A DNA stretch of 64,000 nucleotides from Liolophura sinensis (Eukaryota > Mollusca > Polyplacophora > Chitonida > Chitonidae), in assembly GCF_032854445.1 (NCBI RefSeq), contig NC_088301.1:43767116-43831115 (forward strand), written 5' to 3'. A program made the translations under genes and the position numbers. Every line of letters begins with the position of its first letter. Positions within the stretch are counted from its first letter, which is position 1. This document shows, one piece after another, positions 21,339-63,546 of this stretch. Under the pieces are notes generated by a model. The model was not told where the DNA came from. It did no database searches and saw only the letters and a program-made list of their open reading frames with translations.

Positions 21339-24110
21339 GTGTCCTCATTGGCGGAGGGCTTCCACAATTCAAATATCACTTGTGCTGGCGACTATGAAAT
21401 ATCTGACGAAGTTTTAAACGAGAACTTTGTCCCTGATGATATTTACATCCAACTGATTATTAATGATCTGTTATGTTATATGGCTGACAAACTTGACATA
21501 CTTCCAGTCGACACAATTGTAATGTTGTGTGAAGATGTTTTTAGTGATATAGAGGTACAAGATGGCAAAGATATCCTTTCCAAGACGTTTAGTCATTTGT
21601 GGTCAGGCGTTTGTCGGAAAAGAACTGGCCACAATAAACGTAACAAGACGTTTCACGATATTGTGAGAATGCTCCAGGAAATTGATATCGACGACCTGTA
21701 GTGTTTTGTGGCGAAGAAACTGAGCATACTCACACCGGTATCTACCAACTATATTGATGTCACGCCCCTGTTGAGAAAACTAAATGGTGATAAATTACAA
21801 ATGTCATACATTGTGAATAGAATGGATAATATCCAAACTAATGTACAGAAGAAGAAAAAAACTTGATAAAATGAGCAATAAAATTAATGCCTCTCCCAAA
21901 GCCAAAGCGACTTTCTCGGCTGGCAGTAGAATGTTTAAAAATATCGTGGCTGATGCCTCTACTCAGTCCTCAAATGAAATACCATGAATACTGATGTGAT
22001 CATCTGTGTGATGTCGGGAAAAACCGTAGAAACCTTTCCAGTATCTCAGAACGTAACCATTCATAAAAATGAGCAACTGATACCAAGTCAAAAATCAGCT
22101 GATGGCTTGTTTGAGGAAGATTATCTTCCTTCTGATGCTGTTCTCTGTACTGAGCCTGGGTGTAGGAAACATTCTGATGTTCTTCGTAAATAGTATAACG
22201 ATATTGTTTTGGATTTGCTATCTGCTGGTAATGATCATCTTGCTGAGCGTGATGAAAACCGCCATTGTTCCTGGTTGGAATGACGGTGTCAGTGATCTTG
22301 GTGCGCATCCCTGCATCACGTTTTTGTTGTGGCGTAAACACGGCAGTCCTCGACATGGGCCGGCCCATCGCTGAATACATGCAAAACACACGCCGGCAGT
22401 TTAAATATTCGCTCAGAGCTTGTAAAAAGCACGAGGCCTCCATTAGAGCTGATAACATAGCAAAGTCATACTGTGATGACAATAATAATGACTTTTGGAA
22501 AGAAGTTTAAACTTCCAATTCTAAGTAAAGGCCTTTGCCTTTTATGGGGATTAGCAATCCCCATACAAGGCCCGATTTATTGCGGGTTCAAGAAGTTGTA
22601 CCACCAAACTCTTGTCAACCCTACTTACGAGAGCGTTACAAGAAGTAAAGTCATTTTGGAATAAGTATTGTTGTGCCATAACAAAAAATTCAGGTGTCAA
22701 CTGCATGTGGATTCTTAACAACTCAAAATGTCTTACAGAAGAACTTGATGCTCATATGCATATACCGTACAAAGACGTATCACATGGGATTTTTCTACTC
22801 TCTATACCACGATTCCTCACAAAGATTTTATTGAAAGAATATCGTCGTTAATTGTCTCGGTATTTACTAAAACAGGTCATCGTTACATTAACGTCAGATT
22901 CAATAAGGCTTTCTTTAGTTCTACTATTTATAAAGGTTACCATTCATGGGATGTTACATTATTTATTGAATTATTTGAATTTCTCATTAATAACATCTAT
23001 GTGAAATTCGGGGATACCATTTACCAACAGTGCATTGTTATTCCAGTGGGTACCAATTGTGCGCCTTTTTGGCAGACCTATACCAGTTTTCATATGAATA
23101 CGACTATATGCAGAAATTACTTAAAAGTAATATCTTTAAAGTTCGATCCTTTTCATTTACCAAGCGGTATATTGATGATCTACTGGTGTTAAATAACCCC
23201 CATATTGCTCAAGCGGTGAAAGAAATCTATCCGCCTTCATTGGATTTAAAGGAGACAACAGATAGTCCTGATGGTACACCTTATTTGGACGAACAAGGTC
23301 TCCTTTCACGCTGCCTTTAAGACAAAAGGGATAATTTCAATTTTGATATTGTAAATTATCCTTATTTGGATAGCAATATACCAAAGGGTCCTGCATATGG
23401 CGTATACATATCTCGTCTTGTAGCATTTGTCAGACCTTGCATTCATTGTGATGACTTTAATCCGCGTCACATGTTGCGTCATAAAACTTCATTCTAAGTT
23501 TTTCAAATTTTACAAAGAGTATAACACTCTCGTTGGCAGGTATGGACAGACCGTTCAGAATCTCAGGTGATCTGCGTTGTGATCAACCACATAGACGGCG
23601 CTGTTATCCCTATGTACATATCTATCAACATGTATTTAACAACATAGATGGCGCTGGTTGCCGAATGTAACCGTATATCTTGTAGACAGCTTTTATACAG
23701 ACCAGCATGTCGTGTGTAACATCATAGATGGCGCCTCTTGTAGTATGAGATCCTTAAATATTAACGGGAAGGACGTAATCGTCCGTTACTTTTGAATTAC
23801 GAACTGTTCGGCGAAGGTCTGTAACGCTCGTCATTTTCGAACTGCATCTAATACCGCTTAACCTGGGGCTAGGGGCCGTAAAGGTAGCCATGCTCATTAA
23901 ATCTGCATGATGCTTTCATGAACAGTTCCATTCAAAGCGCGACTGAGATACTTGTTTAATTGTTATTTGACCTGGAACTCATTCATGGACTACGAATCTG
24001 AACTTTGATATAGAATTCATGCCTGGAATGTCCACTGTCTGCCCGGCATCTTTGAAAACTGATGACCTGATCACGTTCTGCTTCATCACCAGTTTCAAAG
24101 TTTTTGAAGA
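21339..24110 (+). mobile_element. Degraded retroelement copy 2 (probably Penelope-like)
   Basis: It starts with an open frame of 120 residues (21339-21701) of the acidic, helical kind found before reverse transcriptases in many invertebrate elements. About 22600-23320 then encodes reverse transcriptase pieces, with CAPF/LADLY, a palm YIDD box and SLDLKETTDS. Near 23490-23570 the frame that ends such proteins is recognisable (FKFYK, VGRYGQ). The tail (23580-24110) matches 16585-17070. The element is clearly dead, with several breaks. No LTR, capsid or envelope part is seen. Family placement rests on motif memory and is uncertain between Penelope-like and other non-LTR types. Confidence 0.7.
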
Positions 24111-25088: not shown

Positions 25089-28071
25089 CTAAATATTTCT
25101 AATGTATTCGTCCAGTACACCAACAAAACTGTCAATATCTCTATTGTCCAGGTCCTTCGTCAGGTTGACGGAAGTTAAGAAGTAGTGAACCAGTTTTTTC
25201 TCTTTAAGAACCCTCTGAAGTTGTGGAATACAGTGGTGGAGGCGTGTTCGTAACATCGTATGACACCAGCTCTCATCTGCGGGGAACCCGTCATATTGAT
25301 ATAACATGAACGTTTTAATATGATAGGACGATAAGCCTCGTATGTTGTATTTTTCCTTGGCTTTCTCCAGTATGTACTTTAAGACTCTGAAAACCAGCTT
25401 ACGGCACGACTTCTGGCCGCTGTTAGCGTGCAAAATTATTTCCTTCTCAATATTTGAGAATGAGAGGCGCCATAGTTTATCCCTATTAGGACCAAGCTGC
25501 ATTTCTATAATAAATAAAAACATCACAAAATGATAATTTTACATGCTCTGTCTTACACTCGTGGAGACAAATTAGATCTTTTATATAAGGATGAGTGAAA
25601 TAGCTGTGAAATGGTTTCTGAATTATAAAATTCTGTGGTCAGCTTGAGGGTCAGTCTCGAGACACGTCCATCGAGACCAGAGTCAGCCTTAAAAGAATGT
25701 TAGGTGTATATTAGGCATACTCATGCGAAGGAAGGTGATTTACAAACTCCTAGATATGAAATAAGCACCACATTCGTAGATTTCATTTTCCTTGAAACCA
25801 CGGTATGAAACACCTCATTTTTGTGTCGCTAAACACGCAGCATCTGTAGTTCATGAACGCTGTATACAAAACAATTTTATCTATATCTTAAACCTTACCT
25901 GTGGGAAAAAAACTTGATTTGACTGGCATTTTACGCCGTCCTCAACAATATGGAGGAAAACCGGGTAGAGCCCGGAAAAAACCCACTACTATCCGCAGAT
26001 TGCTGACAGGCCTCCTCACGTACGGCCGGAGAGGACGCGAAATCATAGCGACCGCATTGGTGGGAGGCTCCTTGGTCATAAACTGTTCATTCTGAATATA
26101 TATGTATATGTTATTGTCTCCGCATGGACGTGTAAGTTGAATGGGTGCAATGTGAAGACAAATCAGTGCTTATATTAGTTTTACCTTGTGCTGCAGTCTT
26201 GGCAACCACATGCGTCTTTGCGTCTTGGTATTTCTTCTTGTGTGCTGCGAAGGGAGGAAATTTAGGAAGTTCCATACTTGGCACCAGATCAACGTCGTAG
26301 GTTACGGGACTGGCCACTTCTCTGGGGTAAGCCTGTCTTGTGCAACGGAGATTAAGCGCTGGACTTTTTCTACTTTGTACCACTTCTAACTCTGTAACGG
26401 ACAATAATAGTTTTCATATACACGTGTAGTACCACAACATCAATATTAACTGTTCCTGAAGGAAAATCAGGGGAAACATGACAACATGAAAATTTACACC
26501 AATGAAGTCAAAATAACTTAAAGTCAATGGACTTTCTAAGCACATTTATCTGACAGATTATATAACACTTATTCACATTACATGCATTTATTCGCATTAC
26601 AGGCACTAAAACACTGAGCTTACCAATCTGTCTCGATAAGCGAAATTGTTCCAATGCCTTGGGAAGCAATTTCAAAACATGTGCTTTCAAAGCTTTGGGG
26701 CTCAACCATTTTCCATCGGTTAATAATTCCGACATCGCCGATCGCTTGGGCTCAGGAATTTCAAGAGAACAGTAGTCTGGGCTGGAGGGTGCATAATGAG
26801 CTTCACAGGGAGGCGTGGCGACCATCATCAGATCGAATTCATTTGGCTTGCACACCTGTACGCCGAAGGAAAAGAAAACAACCAACAATCAAAAACAAAT
26901 GACCCAAACAAATGCATCCGAGATGGTCTATATTGATCATGTTCATATTAATTTAGCTGAAAAAAATTTAATCCACAGGGCAACAACCTATAGGTTGATT
27001 ATTTCGAATTTTTATTTTATAGTACAGCTCCTTACTATACAAACTAATACTCACCTTAACTTTTTCATAATACGATCCTGATGTCAGAATTTTCCACTGA
27101 AAATGTGTGTCAATCTTATTTAGATCTTCCACGAAATTTTTCGATATGTCTTTAATAAATTCCGCTCCGTGTTTGATATCCCCTTTGTCCAACTTAACCT
27201 CCTGAATGATTTGGTCTAACGCAGCTTTGGGATCTGGGTTATAGATCGGATCATGTGACATTTCTGGCAGACGCGTGGGCTGGGGTTTACAATTGTGACT
27301 GCCCTGTGTAATCTTTTTACACGTTTCACAGCGCTCGGCAAAAGACAGGTCTTCTCTACCTTTGCATTTGTGTGCCCCAAGACGGTTAAAACTTTTACCA
27401 CATCCTGGGCATTTGTCCTTGGGCTTATCGTCGTCCTTAGATGATTGTTTACCATCGCATTTGTGTGCCCCAAGCCGCACAAAACTTTTACCACATCCTG
27501 GGCATTTGTCCTTGGGCTTATCGTCGTCCTTATGGGATTGTTTACCATCGCATTTGTGTGCCCCAAGCCGCACAAAACTTTTACCACATCCTGGGCATTT
27601 GTCCTTGGGCTTATCGTCGTCCTTAAGGGATTGTTTACCATCGCATTTGTGTGCCCCAAGCCGCACAAAACTTTTACCACATCCTGGGCATTTGTCCTTG
27701 GGCTTATCGTCGTCCTTAGGGGATTGTTTACCATCGCATTTGTGTGCCGCAAGCCGCACAAAACTTTTACCACATCCTGGACATTTGTCCTTGGGCTTAT
27801 CGTCGTCCTTATGGGATTGTTTACCATCGCATTTGTGTGCCGCAAGCCGCACAAAACTTTTACCACATCCTGGGCATTTGTCCTTGGGCTTATCGTCGTC
27901 CTTAAGGGATTGTTTACCATCGCATTTGTGTGCCCCAAGCCGCACAAAACTTTTACCACATCCTGGGCATTTGTCCTTGGGCTTATCGTCGTCCTTATGG
28001 GATTGTTTACCATCGCATTTGTGTGCCGCAAGCCGCACAAAACTTTTACCACATCCTGGGCATTTCTCCAT
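25089..28071 (-). CDS. cGAS-like receptor (Mab-21 nucleotidyltransferase) with N-terminal zinc-finger array
   Basis: Exons 28071-27055, 26855-26624, 26391-26185 and 25504-25089 join in phase to 623 residues. Residues 4-236 are eight C-x2-C-x9-H-x-C fingers (CPGCGKSFVRLAAHKC type) on a 31-residue period with linker KDDDKPKD. A ninth shorter variant (CETC to HNC) lies at 248-261. The catalytic core follows: GSYYEKVK at 332-339 is the nucleotide-gripping GS motif, NEFDLM at 344-349 supplies E345 and D347, and YDVDLVP supplies the third acid (D451). The C-lobe contains WRLSFSNIEKEI (from W497) and LSSYHIKT, closely resembling vertebrate cGAS. The cGAS zinc ribbon (H-x5-CC-x6-C) is absent; only CRK remains there. 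The family makes cyclic dinucleotides on sensing nucleic acid and signals to STING. This member's ligand and product are unknown. The start is the first in-frame ATG; a GTG upstream was not used. An N-terminus this regular is unusual. Confidence 0.93.
25905..26090 (-). mobile_element. Diverged SINE family 1 in intron 3 of the cGLR gene
   Basis: Recognisable blocks are cattttacgccgtcctcaac, accgggtagagcccgg, atccgcagattgctgacagg, ctcacgtacggccggagagg and gcgaccgcattggtgggagg. The tail end is degraded. Confidence 0.85.
27364..28065 (-). repeat. Coding 93-bp tandem repeat (zinc-finger units of cGLR)
   Basis: Units of 93 bp are nearly identical at the DNA level, with seven full units and an eighth that diverges after its finger. 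Variable sites are few: AAH or GAH in the finger, and His, Leu, Pro or Ser in the linker after QS. Linkers run H, L, H, P, L, H, S from the N-terminus, so neighbouring units are shuffled copies and the array was homogenised recently. Because 93 is divisible by three and the unit has few stops, several spurious frames are open on both strands. Confidence 0.97.
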
Positions 28072-28149: not shown

Positions 28150-30640
28150 AAATCATGTCATATAACATCAAGTCATTTGAAATCCAAGCAAACAAGTACC
28201 TTTTACTACTAGTCGTACTTTTTGAAATGCAAACAAGGAAGTTGTGACAACAAATATGACCTGATCAAATGCAAACAAGTCTTGACAAGTAAATCATACT
28301 GTATAAAATATAAGCAAACATGCAGTGCAAGCATTTATGCAATAATCATGAAAACAAGCTGTAACTACTATACATCAACAATGTAATATCCGAGCTGTAG
28401 CTACCAATCATGCGTTTAATCATGTGAAATCCAAGCATGCAGGGTGTATCTACAAATCACATGACTTAAAATCCAAGCAAGCGGGTTGTATCTACAAATC
28501 ACACCATGTAAAATCTAAGCAAGCAGGATATATCTGCAAATCACATGTAAAATCTAAGCAAGCAGGTTGTATCTACAAATCACATCATGTGAAATCTAAA
28601 CAAGCAGGTTATAGCTACAAATCATATCATGCAAAATCTGAGCAAGCAAGTTGTATCTATAAATCACATCATGTGAAATCTAAGCTAGCAGGATGTACCT
28701 ACAATTCACATCATGTGAAATCTAGGAGGCAGGTTGTATCTACAAATCATATGTGAAATCTAAGCAAACTGGTTGTATCTACAAACCACATGTAAAATCT
28801 AAACAAGCAGGTTGTATCTACAATTCACATCATGTCAAATCTAAAAGCAAGTTGTATCTATAAATGACATCATGTGAAATCTAAGCAAACTGGTTGTATC
28901 TACAAATCACATCATGTGAAAGCTAAGCAAGCAAGTAGTATCTACAAATCGCATCATGTGAAATTTAAGTCGGTAGGTATCTACAAATCACGTGAAATCT
29001 AAGCAAGCAGGCTGTATCTACAAACCACATCATGTGAAATCTAAGCAAGCAAGTAGTATCTACAAATCACATCATGTGAAATTTAAGTAGGTAGGTTGTA
29101 TGTACAATTCACATCATGTGAAATCTAAGAGCAAGTTGTATCTATAAATGACATCATGTGAAATCTAAGCTAGCAGGTTATATCTACCAGTCACATCATG
29201 TGAAAGCTAAGTAGCAGGTTGTATCTACAATTCACATCATGTGAAATCTAAGCAAGCGGGTAGTAGCTACAAATCACATCATGTAAAATCTGAGCAAGTG
29301 GGTTGTAGCTACAAATTACATCATGTAAAATCTGAGCAAGCAAGTTGTATCTACAAATCACATCATGTGAAATATAAGCTAGCAGGCTGTATCTACAATT
29401 CACATCATGTGAAATCTAAGCTCGCAGGTTGTATCTACAAATCATATGTGAAATCTAAGCAAACTGGTTAAAGTTTCTATAAATATCACATGTGAAATCC
29501 AAGCAAGCAAGTAGTATCTACAAATCACATCATGTGAAATCTAAGCAAGCAAGTAGTATCTACAGATCACATCATGTGAAATCTAAGCAAAAGGGTTGTA
29601 TCTACAAATCGCTTCATATGAAATCTAAGCAAGCGGGCTGTATCTACAGTTGACATCATGTAAAATCTAAGCAAGCAGGTTGTATCTACAAATCACATGA
29701 TGTAAAATGTATTCAAGCAGGTTGTATCTACAAATCCCATGTTAAATCTAAGCAAGCTGTATATACAAATCGCATCATGTGAAATCTAAGCAAGCAGGTT
29801 TTATCTACAAATCACATCATGTAAAATGTATTCAAGCAGGTTGTGTCGACAAATCGCATCATGTGAAATCTAAGCAAGCAGGTTGTATCTACAGATCACA
29901 TCATGTAAAATCTAAGCAAGCAGGTTTCATCTACAAATCACATGTGAAATCTAAGCAAACAGTTTGTATCTACAAATCACATCATGTAAAATCTAAGCAA
30001 GCAAGTTGTATCTACAATTCACATCTTGTGAAATCTAAGCTAGCAGGTTGTATCTACAATTCACATCGTGTGAAATCTAAGCCAGCGGGTTGTATCTACA
30101 AATCACATAGTATGAAAACTAAGCTAGCAGGTTGTATCTACAATTCACATCATGTGACATCTAAGCAAACAAGTTGTATCTATAGAACTCATATCATGTA
30201 AAATTTAAGCTAACAGGTTGTATCTATAATTCGCATCACGTAAGATCTAAGCCAGCAGGATGTACCTCCAAATCACATTATGGGAAATCTAAGTAGCAGG
30301 TTGTATCTACAAATCACATGTGAAATCTAAGCAAGCAGGCTGTATCTACAAATCGCACCATGTGAAATCTAAGCAAGCAGGTTGTATCTACAAATCACAT
30401 CATGTAAACTCTAAAAAGCAGGTTTGTATCTATGCATATCACATCATGTGAAATCTGAGCAAACAACTTTCGGGAATAAAACTATACCGAGTGAAATCCA
30501 AGCAACCACGTTGTCTTGTGAAATCCATGAAAGTAAGTTCTGGCTACTAATCATATCAAATGAAATTCAAGGACATCATGTAAATTTCAGACAAGTTGTG
30601 ACTGTTAACCATACATATTAAACCCTAGAAAGCTTGTGAA
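28150..30640. repeat. 42-bp minisatellite abutting the cGLR 5' end
   Basis: Around fifty tandem units of about 42 bp, with the core aaatctaagcaagcaggttg followed by tatctacaaatcacatcatg. Shorter units lack the catcat piece. The middle (about 28420-30460) is homogeneous and the two edges are decayed, with recognisable traces (tgaaatccaagcaaacaagt) starting some 80 bases upstream of the cGLR start codon. Open plus-strand frames reading KSKQAGCIYKSHHV are artefacts of this array. Confidence 0.95.
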
Positions 30641-37837: not shown

Positions 37838-39667
37838 TCAGCAATGTTTCTTGTATCCCTGAGCATTAGAAGAATGTTTGTCATTGGCCTCCTGGACTTT
37901 ACTTATTTCAGCCACAGCTTGAAACACAAGATACAGCGGGATCACTATCCACAACATATTCATGAACACAAAATAAAACCAAAAATACTGTAGACTCCAT
38001 TTTTCACTGTGGCTGAAGTCATCTCTAACCTCAGTCATGAAGTAGAGGATGCATCCGTACAGTTGACATATGGACACTATTAGCTGCAATGGGTAACGAT
38101 AAGAGCTTCTTCTGAAGAAAGCAATGATAGTCAGGAAGCACAGTGGTCCATCGATCACTGCTGTTATACTCTCCATGCACACAGTAAAATTGTCAGAGCT
38201 GCAAACAAAAATGACAACTCAGTAAGTTACAGACCAGACCAGATCACTTATAACAAGACACATTTAATGGACTTGTCAAATTTGATGAGTAGTTTGAAAA
38301 TAGGTAAAATTTCAAAAGCTGCTTTCACATGGTGCGATTTCTGAAAGTCTATAAGACATAGGAAATGGAGTTTGTCCTATTTTCATCTGAATAGTACAAT
38401 TTGATGAGCCAATTCAACAAATCACACAGTGTGACACAGCTTTAAATGGCCAACAAAATGAACCAAGATGCAGGATTCACATTTTGGGAAGAGTTATCAA
38501 AGTCAAGTGATCATCTTACCTCATATACCTGCTGTCACCTTTACCATACTCTTTCCCTGGAACAGAAATACAACAAACATTAAATGATGGAATTAGATCT
38601 CATCTACATTATATTAATCAAAATGTTTTAACACATATGTTTACAGATACAGAACTGCAGCTCTTTCTTTATACACTGATGGACAGAGAGCTAATGCCTG
38701 TACCTCTACATCTATCAACATATAAAACTAAGATTTATTCTTTTATTTGATTTATTTGGTGGGAGGAATCCTAGTGCAGGTTGCTGACAGTTCTCAAGTA
38801 CAATAAAAAGGGAGAAAGAAGAGTAGAGCTGCAGTTAGCACCATGTAGCTTGAAACTTGTGTCAAGCTGGGCAGTGTATATTAGATGGAGAAAAACTGTC
38901 CAAAATGTTGTAACAGGGTACCGGTAACTCTGGTTTTCTGCAGAGGACCACATCGCTAAACCAAGAGACTGAACGTTTTTTAAAAATAAAAATAAAAAGT
39001 GTTATAGCAAGTTCAAACGGATTATACACACATATCACCGTCAACGCTAATTCTAATGCTAATGCTGAACATAACACCACTGCTTATCTATAGAGCTACA
39101 GTAATGTATCCACTGAGTGTGCTAAAATTCTGACATTCAAGACTGCAAACACTGATAAATGTCAGAAGTATAAAATAACAAGCCGGGTCCATAATAGCGC
39201 AAGTTGTTTGAGTGTCTTTTTACAAAGATACCGCAATAGAAAACGTAAGCTTATTTCATGATTAGTTTTGAATGTCTCTATCTCTGCCTACACTTCGGAG
39301 TGTACTAAGCAACAGAGAAAATTCGTGATAATGTTTGTTTAGAAGAAGTGACCATCAACGTACATATCTGAGCGAGGTAGGATTGTCTCCCGGCTATGGT
39401 GGCATGATAAATACTGAAATAGCCCTCCAGAACCGTGTGAATGACAGCGCACATCGTGAACCAGCAAACCTTCACACGATCTCCCAAAGAGAACCTCCAT
39501 GTCTGCTTCCCTGAATAAACCCACACCACTAACGCCAGGCCAACCACCAGGCCGAAAAACGTTATCGGAACCAAAAATATATCGTTTTCGTTAGGTACAT
39601 AATGGGGCAATTCCAAATCCAGTGGGTAATACGGGTGCTTCATATTTTCTGGTGTCTGGGTTGCCAT
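37838..39667 (-). CDS. EBP: EBP, 3-beta-hydroxysteroid delta8-delta7 isomerase (3 exons)
   Basis: An ER membrane enzyme that shifts the sterol B-ring double bond from position 8 to 7 late in sterol synthesis and also binds emopamil-type drugs. Exons 39667-39364, 38556-38520 and 38198-37838 join in phase to 233 residues (human EBP about 230). HPYYPLDLELPHYVPN matches the family N-terminus. Catalytic residues described for human EBP are all here, shifted by one: H77 and E81 in CAVIHTVLEGYF, E123 and T126 in VCMESITA, and N194 and W197 in FVFMNMLWIV. WKEYGKGDSRYM is spliced across the tiny middle exon. Hydrophobic segments are at about 31-51, 66-88, 122-142, 150-169 and 185-208. Nothing suggests decay. 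It stands apart from KLHDC10 and is read in the same direction. Confidence 0.96.
38735..38800 (-). mobile_element. Short SINE family 1 remnant in EBP intron 1
   Basis: Tail-like tttatttgatttatttggtg and gggaggaatcc, followed by gcaggttgctgacag. It is internally deleted. Confidence 0.55.
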
Positions 39668-60900: not shown

Positions 60901-63546
60901 AGTACCCCAAAAGCCAAGAAAATCAAACTGGTAACCAAGCAACATTGCATCTATCCCTGTTGCAACGGTCATGGAAAAAAGAAAATGAATATTCATGCAA
61001 TTTCCTTGAGCATCTAGATGCGTAAATACATGTACTGATTTTATTGTCATATCATACGTTCTTCAAGCAAACTGTAAAAGGATTTTTTTTTTTATACCGA
61101 TCTGATAGTGGAACTCCAGTATGGAGTTATTACATTGACAGCAGAGAACAGTGTATTGAAATGCCAAAAATAGCAAGTGTACAGGTTTGTTGGTTTTGGT
61201 AAGCATTCAGATGTTTGATTATTAAAGAGATAAGGAATCATCACTGATTGACGATTGAGACAGGCAAGACCATGATATGATTCCAGTCAAAGATGATTTA
61301 TAGATACGGAACATTTTTTCAAGCTTGAACAAGATTACAGTTTACCCAGGAATTTTTATCTGCACAGCCAGCCAATCAGTGTTGATTCTTAATTCCATGT
61401 AAGGTGTTGGATTTGTCAGGTTCATATTTGTGTTACTGTGTATGTTTGTGCTGCTGACATAAAAAGGAAGATGTTTTAAGTTTTGTGGGCTTTTTTGCTA
61501 TTTCTCTTTTTATTAAAAGATTTTAAGTGAACTGTGTTGTTTTTTTACCTCAAGGCAGACATCACAACATTAGTGTTATTTTTATTCAATAAGAATACTT
61601 ATGGTCAAGCAATTGACACACTTTCTCACATGATATTGCGTTTCCTTTCAGTCTATGAAGGAGGGATTAGACCTGATATCTGAACACAGGGTATGGTGTC
61701 CTTGGGTGATTATTCCAGGAAATCAAGCACAACAGTTCTCCCCTACCCTGCAGAGGACACAAATGGCAGACATGACCCAGAGCACAGAGATATCAACTTC
61801 TTCCTCAGCTGGTAATTCCAACAGACTGTTGCCAGCACAACACCAAGCAACAAATGCGGTGTCCTCTGATGGAACACTTAACTCCCCCAACAACTTGCTC
61901 AATGAATCAGACAGTGGTGTGACTATGTTAAATGCGTCATTTGTTTCTGAGGACTCAAATCACTCTCTCCAGAACAGCCAGTTCTCCTCAAGTTCACCAG
62001 GACACCAGTTGTGTGACTTCAGTCCAGGTCAGAAAGGCAACTTCATGGCAACTTCACATGCTCAGTTACGTGAAGCTACACAACTTCCTCCTTGGCAGAT
62101 GCTTCTGCTTCTCTTACATTTATGGAAACCAGAGAACAGACTATCTGGACAACAAGTTCAAGAATTGAAGTCTGTGAGTTGTAATTAATGAAACTTATTG
62201 AAGTGTAAAATTTGGCATCAAAGGGGTGAACTGGAATTTCTTTGTTTTTTTTTGTTGTTTTTTTTTTAGAGATTATACAGTATCTTTTTGTCTTTTCTTT
62301 TTAATGCATGTAGGTGTGTATATTTATTTCCGTCCACATGCAGAGTGGTAGTGTATTATTTCTGATGTTGGGCTATTTGTAGAATTGTGGTGGACAGGTT
62401 CACGAGTGACAGTGAGCAACTTGTAGAGTGGAGGTGGAGTGCAGCCATGTAACTGAACCCCTGCCTGCATGCCAAATGCAGGCAAAAATCGCTGCCTGCC
62501 CAATCAGTCAGCCACTATTTCTCGTTAACCATTTTCTCCTTTACAAATAAATTCAACTTGCGATGTCTGATGGATGTCACTCTTATGTTGTTAACTGGAC
62601 AAAATGTGGTTTTGCCACACAAGGGTTCCGCCAATGGGTGAGGAAGCTTTCTGTGTTCTCCGTGACTCGGTTCGTTGTGGTACGGTAACCATGATGCATA
62701 CATTCAATACGAGAAGCCTGGCACAGAAGAGTTTGTATTTTTAACATCAAATTCGTTGCTAACGAGAAGCTGCAGTTTTGTGGTGTGCACTGTTGTCTAA
62801 TGAACATTGCTTTGAAAAATCCAAGCAAAGGTAAAGCAAGTCGTTCAATAGGTTGTTGCAATAGGTTGTTGCAATAGGTTGTATGACTATAGTTCAATTA
62901 AATTGAACCTTGAGGCTTGTTTTCAACCATTTCTGATATTCGTAATGTAGGAATTTGGCCAATTAATCCACTCCAAAACCGTGGCACACGCCGATTTCTG
63001 GTGTGGACTGAGAAGAGATGAGTCTTTTCGATCACTCCAGAAAGTTTGTCAATTTCAGACTAGTTACGTGCAGAAAACCGGATAAACTGTTGATTTTTTT
63101 CTTTTCAATATCACGGTGTGCACAAGCGACAGATTGGGTGCTTCCAAAACCCGGATTGAGGCCACAGTAAGAAAACATGGATAATGAAGCAGATGTGCAC
63201 ATGATATCTGCAAGCTTTGACTGAATCCTCAGCAAATTGTTCTTTCTATTCTAAATCCATGATGACCGATGAAATTATCACTAGTTGTCATTTAAGACTT
63301 CTTGTCGTCTTTTTTTGTTAGGTTGATTTCCGTATTTTTTGGCACGTGGTTCTGAGATTTAAGTACACTCGACTTGCCATGACATTGCAAAGGTATTTGG
63401 ATGAGGGAGTAGGAAATACTTCTGTGGATTTCAACAACATTTCGACTTGGGAACAGATTTATACTTGCAGGAGTGGTAATAAAGGTCATATTCCCTTTAA
63501 TACACACCAGAAATTGGCGCATGCAGCCGTTTCAAAGTGGATTTAA
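54978..63546 (+). CDS. ZC3HC1: ZC3HC1 / NIPA-like nuclear basket protein (9 exons)
   Basis: Exons 54978-55066, 57265-57361, 57846-57987, 58276-58359, 59119-59246, 59941-60056, 60726-60930, 61652-62173 and 63322-63546 join in phase to 535 residues (human about 502). Residues 57-131 are the first BIR-like module: RVETFT, KPADVSPLECARYGWEN, C90-x2-C93 and H125-x3-C129-PW. The second module has C228-x2-C231 and EHRVWCPW (H299, C303), separated by a long loop ending in a basic patch KAKKIKL. Both zinc sets are complete. The family binds TPR at the nuclear basket and was first described as an F-box-like cyclin B1 ligase factor. Residues 310-440 are Ser/Asn/Gln-rich and likely disordered. Intron 2 looks U12-type. 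The last exon keeps FRIF like human, but its tail of some 65 residues is unfamiliar. Confidence 0.94.
57362..57845 (+). other. Probable U12-type AT-AC intron of ZC3HC1
   Basis: After ...acgttcacc the intron begins atatcctttt, the exact minor-spliceosome 5' site. Near its end is tccttaactt (57820-57829), the U12 branch consensus, and an AC at 57844-57845 precedes TGG CTG GCC. This joins ETFT to WLAKP in phase. No usable GT donor fits the reading frame here. Confidence 0.85.
62174..63321 (+). other. Last intron of ZC3HC1
   Basis: It is bounded by tct/gtgagt and a T-rich acceptor ending gttag. It contains three copies of ttgcaataggttg near 62857-62884 and a short gtagagtggaggtgga stretch at 62430 that resembles the array at the window end. 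No gene is seen inside. Confidence 0.7.

Follow-up and report, generated by a model that had tools for sequence, protein, structure and literature searches.

Vertebrate cGAS carries a basic N-terminal extension, and its core holds a zinc ribbon of the form H-x-CC-x-C. The region 390-405 of cGAS is named as the zinc-ribbon region in PMC10855445. In the oyster Crassostrea gigas, the cloned full-length CgcGAS is a 590-residue protein with a Mab-21 domain and three zinc-finger domains; it binds both double-stranded DNA (dsDNA; apparent Kd 1.6e-8) and poly(I:C) (2.01e-7), and its authors propose a contribution of the zinc fingers (PMC8218723, 2021). For Cv-cGLR1 of Crassostrea virginica (PDB 8gjw), a cGAS-like receptor (cGLR), dsDNA is reported as the activator and 2'3'-cUA as the product (PMC9980059). 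A third protein, C17orf80 of jawed vertebrates, has a single N-terminal CCHC finger (Cys-X2-Cys-X9-His-X3-Cys) and is associated with mitochondrial DNA nucleoids, with DNA binding suggested by its authors (PMC10445727). Here we describe a gene of the chiton Liolophura sinensis, hereafter the receptor gene, which on its sequence and predicted structure encodes an N-terminal array of compact CCHC finger motifs and a complete cGAS-fold nucleotidyltransferase. It lies in a 64,000-nucleotide stretch, the window (assembly GCF_032854445.1, contig NC_088301.1, positions 43,767,116 to 43,831,115 of the forward strand).

The receptor resembles CgcGAS in that consecutive zinc-finger domains and a Mab-21 domain stand in one predicted molluscan protein, and differs in that the oyster protein has three zinc-finger domains whereas two chiton genes have 8 and 28 units (PMC8218723). 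In contrast to the receptor, C17orf80 has one finger and no Mab-21 core. A first-pass annotation of the window knew of no described receptor with exactly this layout; that novelty is supported only in part, since CgcGAS, the one printed case that we found, is of this kind. The oyster layout has, however, not been studied as an array, and arrays of 8 or 28 units were not seen elsewhere; our searches of open-licence literature gave no description of arrays this size. Nor did they give any paper on Liolophura with cGAS or on chiton with cGAS and STING, and the word 'zinc' is absent from the main text of the cGLR papers PMC9980059, PMC10732462 and PMC12424679. What is new is the length and turnover of the array, and the surprising part is the 28-unit paralogue together with the separate expansions.

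Gene model and catalytic core

The receptor gene has GT-AG borders at all introns, and its four exons (Table 1) join into 623 codons without a stop. We picked the splice sites by reading frame; all 623 residues agree (100% identity) with an NCBI/UniRef entry, 'cyclic GMP-AMP synthase-like [Liolophura sinensis]', so the join at 27055/26855 is also that of the public model, itself a prediction. The coordinates and the 623-residue model of the first-pass annotation hold, and the gene model is already public as a prediction.

Since the splice sites were chosen by reading frame and the join is a prediction, a separate zinc-finger gene or repeat might have been joined in silico to a Mab-21 gene. We give this almost no credence: the single open frame of exon 1 spans both the fingers and the beginning of the core, as far as GSYYEKVK, a paralogue (below) repeats the plan with exons 2-4 of the same lengths, the NCBI model is identical, and an oyster full-length cDNA with the same layout has been cloned (PMC8218723). 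The continuity of exon 1 and the equal exon lengths led us to reject it. The first-pass reading, in which a single gene encodes both a finger array and a cGAS-like core, is supported.

The core is complete, in agreement with the first-pass reading: GS332-333, E345, D347 and D451 are all present and are invariant in a five-protein alignment. In the receptor protein, Pfam PF03281 and PF20266 (nucleotidyltransferase core and C-terminal helix bundle) both score above their cut-offs, and Foldseek and VIA find cGAS-like matches over residues ~281-623 of the predicted structure; the VIA list consists of Foldseek's own matches, nearly all cGAS, and is silent on the finger fold. With its GS loop and acidic triad, and with two-domain homology to a cGAS-like predicted structure, the receptor can be classed as a putative cGLR. 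The residue preceding GS is S instead of the Q/T printed in PMC9980059, as it also is in Cv-cGLR1. For the second-to-third acidic spacing, given as 50-90 in that paper, our pattern yields 101; since it yields 89-102 for the vertebrate cGAS rows listed, either our count differs from that of the paper or the printed range is loose.

By sequence and by Foldseek alike, the best solved match of the core is Cv-cGLR1 (26% identity). Its solved chain (355 residues) is without most of the N-terminus, and the entry is numbered 288-632 versus 279-623 in the receptor, so native Cv-cGLR1 seems to bear an N-terminal extension of similar length. A zinc ribbon is apparent in neither protein (HANEKEKGCRK in Cv-cGLR1 versus HANSGQKSCRK in the receptor); the receptor has one cysteine here, compared with HGKSKTCCENKEEKCCRK in 6edc. 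Vertebrate cGAS shares the core fold and catalytic residues and differs by its core ribbon and by the absence of such a finger in all 36 vertebrate proteins returned.

A weak match to Mab-21-like 1 (5eog, 6.2e-8), together with Mab-21 members for which no cyclic-dinucleotide synthesis is known, would suit a catalytically inactive developmental or structural protein. The invariant catalytic residues and the far stronger match to cGAS and Cv-cGLR1 make this very unlikely.

The finger array

The eight to nine fingers counted in the first pass resolve into eight of the form C-x2-C-x9-H-x1-C (unit consensus CPGCGKSF(V/N)RL(A/G)AHKC) and a ninth, shorter site, CETCKKITQGSHNC, ahead of the core. In the six frames of the window the C-x2-C-x9-H-x1-C pattern matches eight times, every time inside the array, compared with a mean of 0.42 and a maximum of 2 in residue shuffles of these frames (n=50). 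The copies are tandem duplicates and are therefore not independent evidence for fingers, and the open frame over the array proves little because three further frames there are open too (303, 268 and 218 residues). The real support for the fingers is the diverged paralogue and the finger-bearing relatives in other species.

Classical C2H2 fingers (PF00096) have the spacing C-x2-C-x12-H-x3-H and read bases with the fingertip and the start of the helix. None of the eight receptor fingers has this spacing, and their fingertip and helix-start stretch is shortened by three residues; a classical DNA-reading C2H2 array is ruled out by spacing. The summed score of Pfam zf-C2H2 on the array is significant (2.5e-20), although its best stretch is confined to profile positions 2-13 of 23. 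When the PDB is searched with a profile built from the fingers, the matches are to proteins with classical fingers, headed by Aart (2i13; 4.6e-12), and rest on the C-x2-C half and the KP linker; these matches are resemblance, not function.

Any two of copies 1-7 are separated by 0-4 differences in 93 bases, compared with 33-36 between them and copy 8. Near-identical copies beside an old copy 8 point to recent expansion or homogenisation. Upstream, a satellite of ~50 copies of a 42-bp unit ends ~350 bp from the start codon, so the neighbourhood is prone to slippage.

A paralogue with 28 finger units

We searched the 609-Mb genome of the chiton, in which the window is C7:43767116-43831115, with the whole protein and obtained 28 matches (71 of 102 candidates scored). 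Twelve rows are the receptor gene and one close relative, on C8 (G000:C8:11603261-11608445). The other 16, at 19-37% identity, include several cGLR cores and some charged or classical zinc-finger stretches.

The C8 paralogue encodes 1267 residues, and its exons 2-4 are exactly as long as those of the receptor gene (232, 207 and 416 nt). The two cores align without gaps with 305 of 381 residues identical, and with synonymous divergence (dS) of 0.700, non-synonymous divergence (dN) of 0.109 and dN/dS of 0.156, both cores are under purifying selection. Exon 1 of the paralogue holds 28 finger units, 24 of them with all four ligands. The four ligand columns are kept in 24, 28, 28 and 27 of the 28 units; among the 1820 possible sets of four columns, just 17 reach that level of conservation. 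The paralogue also retains a 1020-codon open frame and the ninth site, as CEICKNITQGSHEC. Basic units (CKGCGKSFVRISRHKC) in part alternate with acidic units (CEGCGESIVENGAHKC). The units finish in KPKE ahead of the next C, which resembles the TGEKP linker of classical fingers.

Finger-bearing relatives

A comparison of the 623-residue model with protein databases returned finger-plus-core proteins in abalones, periwinkle and tubeworm, each with 1-4 intact fingers. These searches covered 0.55-1.75 times the query length, a range outside which proteins as large as the 1267-residue paralogue fall. Of the 47 proteins in the relative set, 36 are vertebrate, none with a finger motif ahead of the core, and eight carry the motif there, the receptor itself included. 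Intact fingers number 8 in the receptor, 4 in Haliotis rufescens, 1 each in H. rubra and H. asinina, 3 and 4 in two Littorina saxatilis proteins and 1 in the tubeworm Lamellibrachia satsuma (P0009-P0013 and P0003 for the abalone, Littorina and tubeworm proteins), and P0004 has 1 intact and 1 damaged finger. In P0012 the pattern matches twice, at residues 30 and 33; the two matches overlap and were counted as one finger with slightly different spacing. No finger motif was found in P0002 (from a 1436-base contig), cnidarian P0043 or P0047, a 270-residue Littorina piece that starts within the core.

The relatives' pattern is C-x2-C-x9-H-x1-3-C, N-terminal of the Mab-21 core, and the Littorina P0013 finger, CPTCGKQFKQLSRHKC, has exactly the spacing of the chiton's. 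The cores are ~24-31% identical, and units and linkers differ. Most mollusc and tubeworm fingers are basic, 10 of 13 representatives being without any acidic residue. H. rufescens has four near-identical 52-residue units (pairwise protein identity 0.90-1.0) versus one in its two congeners. Hence, the arrays grew separately in abalone and chiton.

We built a 21-row tree from 16 members of the 47-protein set, the paralogue, the aligned stretch of Cv-cGLR1 and 3 of the 17 Mab-21 loci of the chiton genome. The finger proteins share one side of a branch with Cv-cGLR1 and P0002 (support 86/91), vertebrate cGAS is separate (99/98), and two other chiton cGLRs form their own group with a sea anemone protein (96/98). 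The finger proteins alone as a single clade were rejected by the approximately unbiased test (p 0.00074), with Cv-cGLR1 and P0002 scored as fingerless, perhaps wrongly. With this scoring, the result speaks against fingers that arose once and were never lost; P0002, from a contig, and Cv-cGLR1, a construct, may be truncated. A profile search with the full alignment (7990 candidates scored) was dominated by finger words and gave 1 protein.

The variation in unit number among relatives, from 4 in H. rufescens to 1 in H. rubra and H. asinina, the near-identity of copies 1-7 and the adjoining 42-bp satellite would all suit a largely neutral coding minisatellite, in which one useful ancestral finger drifts in copy number by replication slippage and sensing is unaffected. 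We regard this as possible but doubtful, since the old 28-unit array keeps its metal-ligand positions while most others change, its 1020-codon frame stays open, and arrays were enlarged in at least two separate genera, chiton and abalone.

Proposed mechanism

With moderate confidence, based on sequence and predicted structure, we propose that the receptor with its array is a nucleic-acid sensor that makes a cyclic dinucleotide, with mostly basic fingers as a multivalent arm. The first-pass suggestion of such an arm is plausible. The ligand would be double-stranded nucleic acid, which the core would contact directly by analogy with Cv-cGLR1, a reportedly dsDNA-activated enzyme without an obvious zinc ribbon. 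The fingers, predicted to bind zinc, would sit on charged flexible linkers and hold the same polymer at many points, giving higher affinity, length-dependence and clustering; the array would thereby take the job of the disordered basic N-terminus of vertebrate cGAS. Because the base-reading stretch of classical C2H2 fingers is missing, the fingers would be expected to recognise the backbone or shape of the polymer and to be indifferent to its sequence. The product of the active enzyme, a cyclic dinucleotide, would then be read by STING-like proteins that this genome also encodes, and array length would shift by tandem duplication of 93-96-bp units within exon 1.

The chiton genome has five matched pieces of STING ligand-binding domains above the Pfam cut-off. 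They lie at G000:C12:21312077-21371282, on both strands, which suggests more than one STING-like gene.

Several observations weigh against this proposal. The evidence from charge is mixed: the receptor protein is basic (isoelectric point, pI, 9.19), and the paralogue is near neutral to acidic (pI 6.67). The paralogue array is net acidic (166 K+R, 178 D+E; pI 6.24); its fingers are basic (90 K+R, 34 D+E), and its linkers are acidic (74 K+R, 142 D+E; pI 4.24). Its acidic finger type has 1 K+R and 3 D+E, three of its units are without the first cysteine, and one is without the first and last ligands. An AlphaFold2 model of two fingers was poor (pLDDT 49.5), and much of the array is below 50 in the full structure model. 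The near-identical copies could be a young neutral minisatellite. The last step, the STING readout, may fail in molluscs, because the oyster authors judged CgSTING and CgTBK1 not to be downstream of CgcGAS (PMC8218723).

The array may instead be a protein-interaction reader, or one of the polyubiquitin/poly(ADP-ribose) type. Its CCHC fingers would then recruit partners or ubiquitin chains and place or gate the enzyme, and nucleic acid would be sensed by the core alone. Ubiquitin-binding UBZ fingers include a CCHC type with the spacing C-x2-C-x11-H-x3-C. This spacing differs from the x9 and x1 of the receptor, and the fingers of molluscs and the tubeworm are mostly basic, both of which argue against a protein reader. 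In its favor are the existence of a CCHC type among UBZ fingers, the absence of the base-reading part of the classical finger (only zf-C2H2 positions 2-13 of 23 are matched), the acidic finger type and acidic linkers of the paralogue, and the fact that small CCHC fingers are known for binding DNA or protein alike (PMC10445727). We take this alternative seriously without expecting it to be correct.

Other features of the window and genome

A Mab-21 profile search of the genome gave at least 17 loci; neither finger gene was among them, so 17 is a lower bound. The tight finger motif was in 0 of 22 fetched loci (17 Mab-21 and 5 STING matches with ~1.5 kb flanks, beyond which distant exons may lie). 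Five Mab-21 matches are within ~100 kb at G000:C6:11092861-11195189, and three or more are close copies that retain the GS and acidic motifs; by sequence, this group appears to be a tandem set of further cGLRs, whose fetched flanks have no finger motif.

In the window, the Pfam scan covered 10 of 138 open frames of at least 70 codons. One frame has an EXPERA (EBP/TMEM97-type) domain and is probably an exon of an unrelated gene, and another matches NuBaID_C weakly. Further open frames are, by eye, presumably pieces of a retroelement reverse transcriptase; the 147-residue frame among them had no Pfam match.

Table 1. Features of the window (window positions) and exons of the paralogue (C8 positions)
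Feature	Position	Strand	Basis or content
Whole coding region, finger-array cGAS-like receptor	25089..28071	minus	four exons, 623 residues; splice model and identical public protein P0001
Exon 1	27055..28071	minus	1017 nt; residues 1-339: finger array, ninth CCHC site, start of nucleotidyltransferase core with GS motif
Exon 2	26624..26855	minus	232 nt; catalytic E345 and D347 (NEFD)
Exon 3	26185..26391	minus	207 nt; D451, third catalytic residue (YDVDLVP)
Exon 4	25089..25504	minus	416 nt including stop; C-terminal helical domain (Mab-21_C, residues 519-613); HANSGQKSCRK at zinc-ribbon position
Eight C-x2-C-x9-H-x1-C fingers, 31-residue (93-bp) repeat, residues 4-236	27364..28062	minus	pattern and repeat period
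Ninth, shorter site CETCKKITQGSHNC (C-x2-C-x7-H-x1-C), residues 248-261	27289..27330	minus	pattern; present in paralogue too
GS332-333, nucleotide-binding loop (TSGSYYE)	27073..27078	minus	motif and alignment
E345-F346-D347 codons	26832..26840	minus	splice model
D451 codon	26288..26290	minus	splice model
42-bp-unit satellite	28419..30462		
EXPERA frame	37841..38218	minus	PF05241, E 2.8e-24
NuBaID_C match	61634..62185	plus	PF08600, 21.1 bits, cut-off 20.2
Presumed reverse transcriptase frames	22749..23320	plus	by eye
Paralogue exons	C8 11603261-11606209, 11606659-11606890, 11607212-11607418, 11608030-11608445		read from L043 (G000:C8:11600500-11610000)

Biological meaning

We put forward, as a speculative and rather unlikely extension, that molluscs use expandable arrays for innate sensing: a fast-turnover finger minisatellite in the coding sequence would have grown independently to 8 and 28 units in chitons and to 4 in abalone. 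The number of units and the mix of basic and acidic fingers, more than the conserved enzyme, would set which polymer is sensed and how strongly the sensors cluster. If so, the 28-unit receptor would be an extreme case of multivalency, with long nucleic acid or protein-bound nucleic acid as its target. The paralogue pair, with the same core and exon plan and 8 versus 28 fingers, forms together with abalones that have 1 and 4 a natural dose series, which makes the relation of finger number to affinity, length threshold, clustering and ligand choice testable. The array would then be a modular solution to a problem for which vertebrate cGAS relies on its zinc ribbon and a basic, disordered tail.
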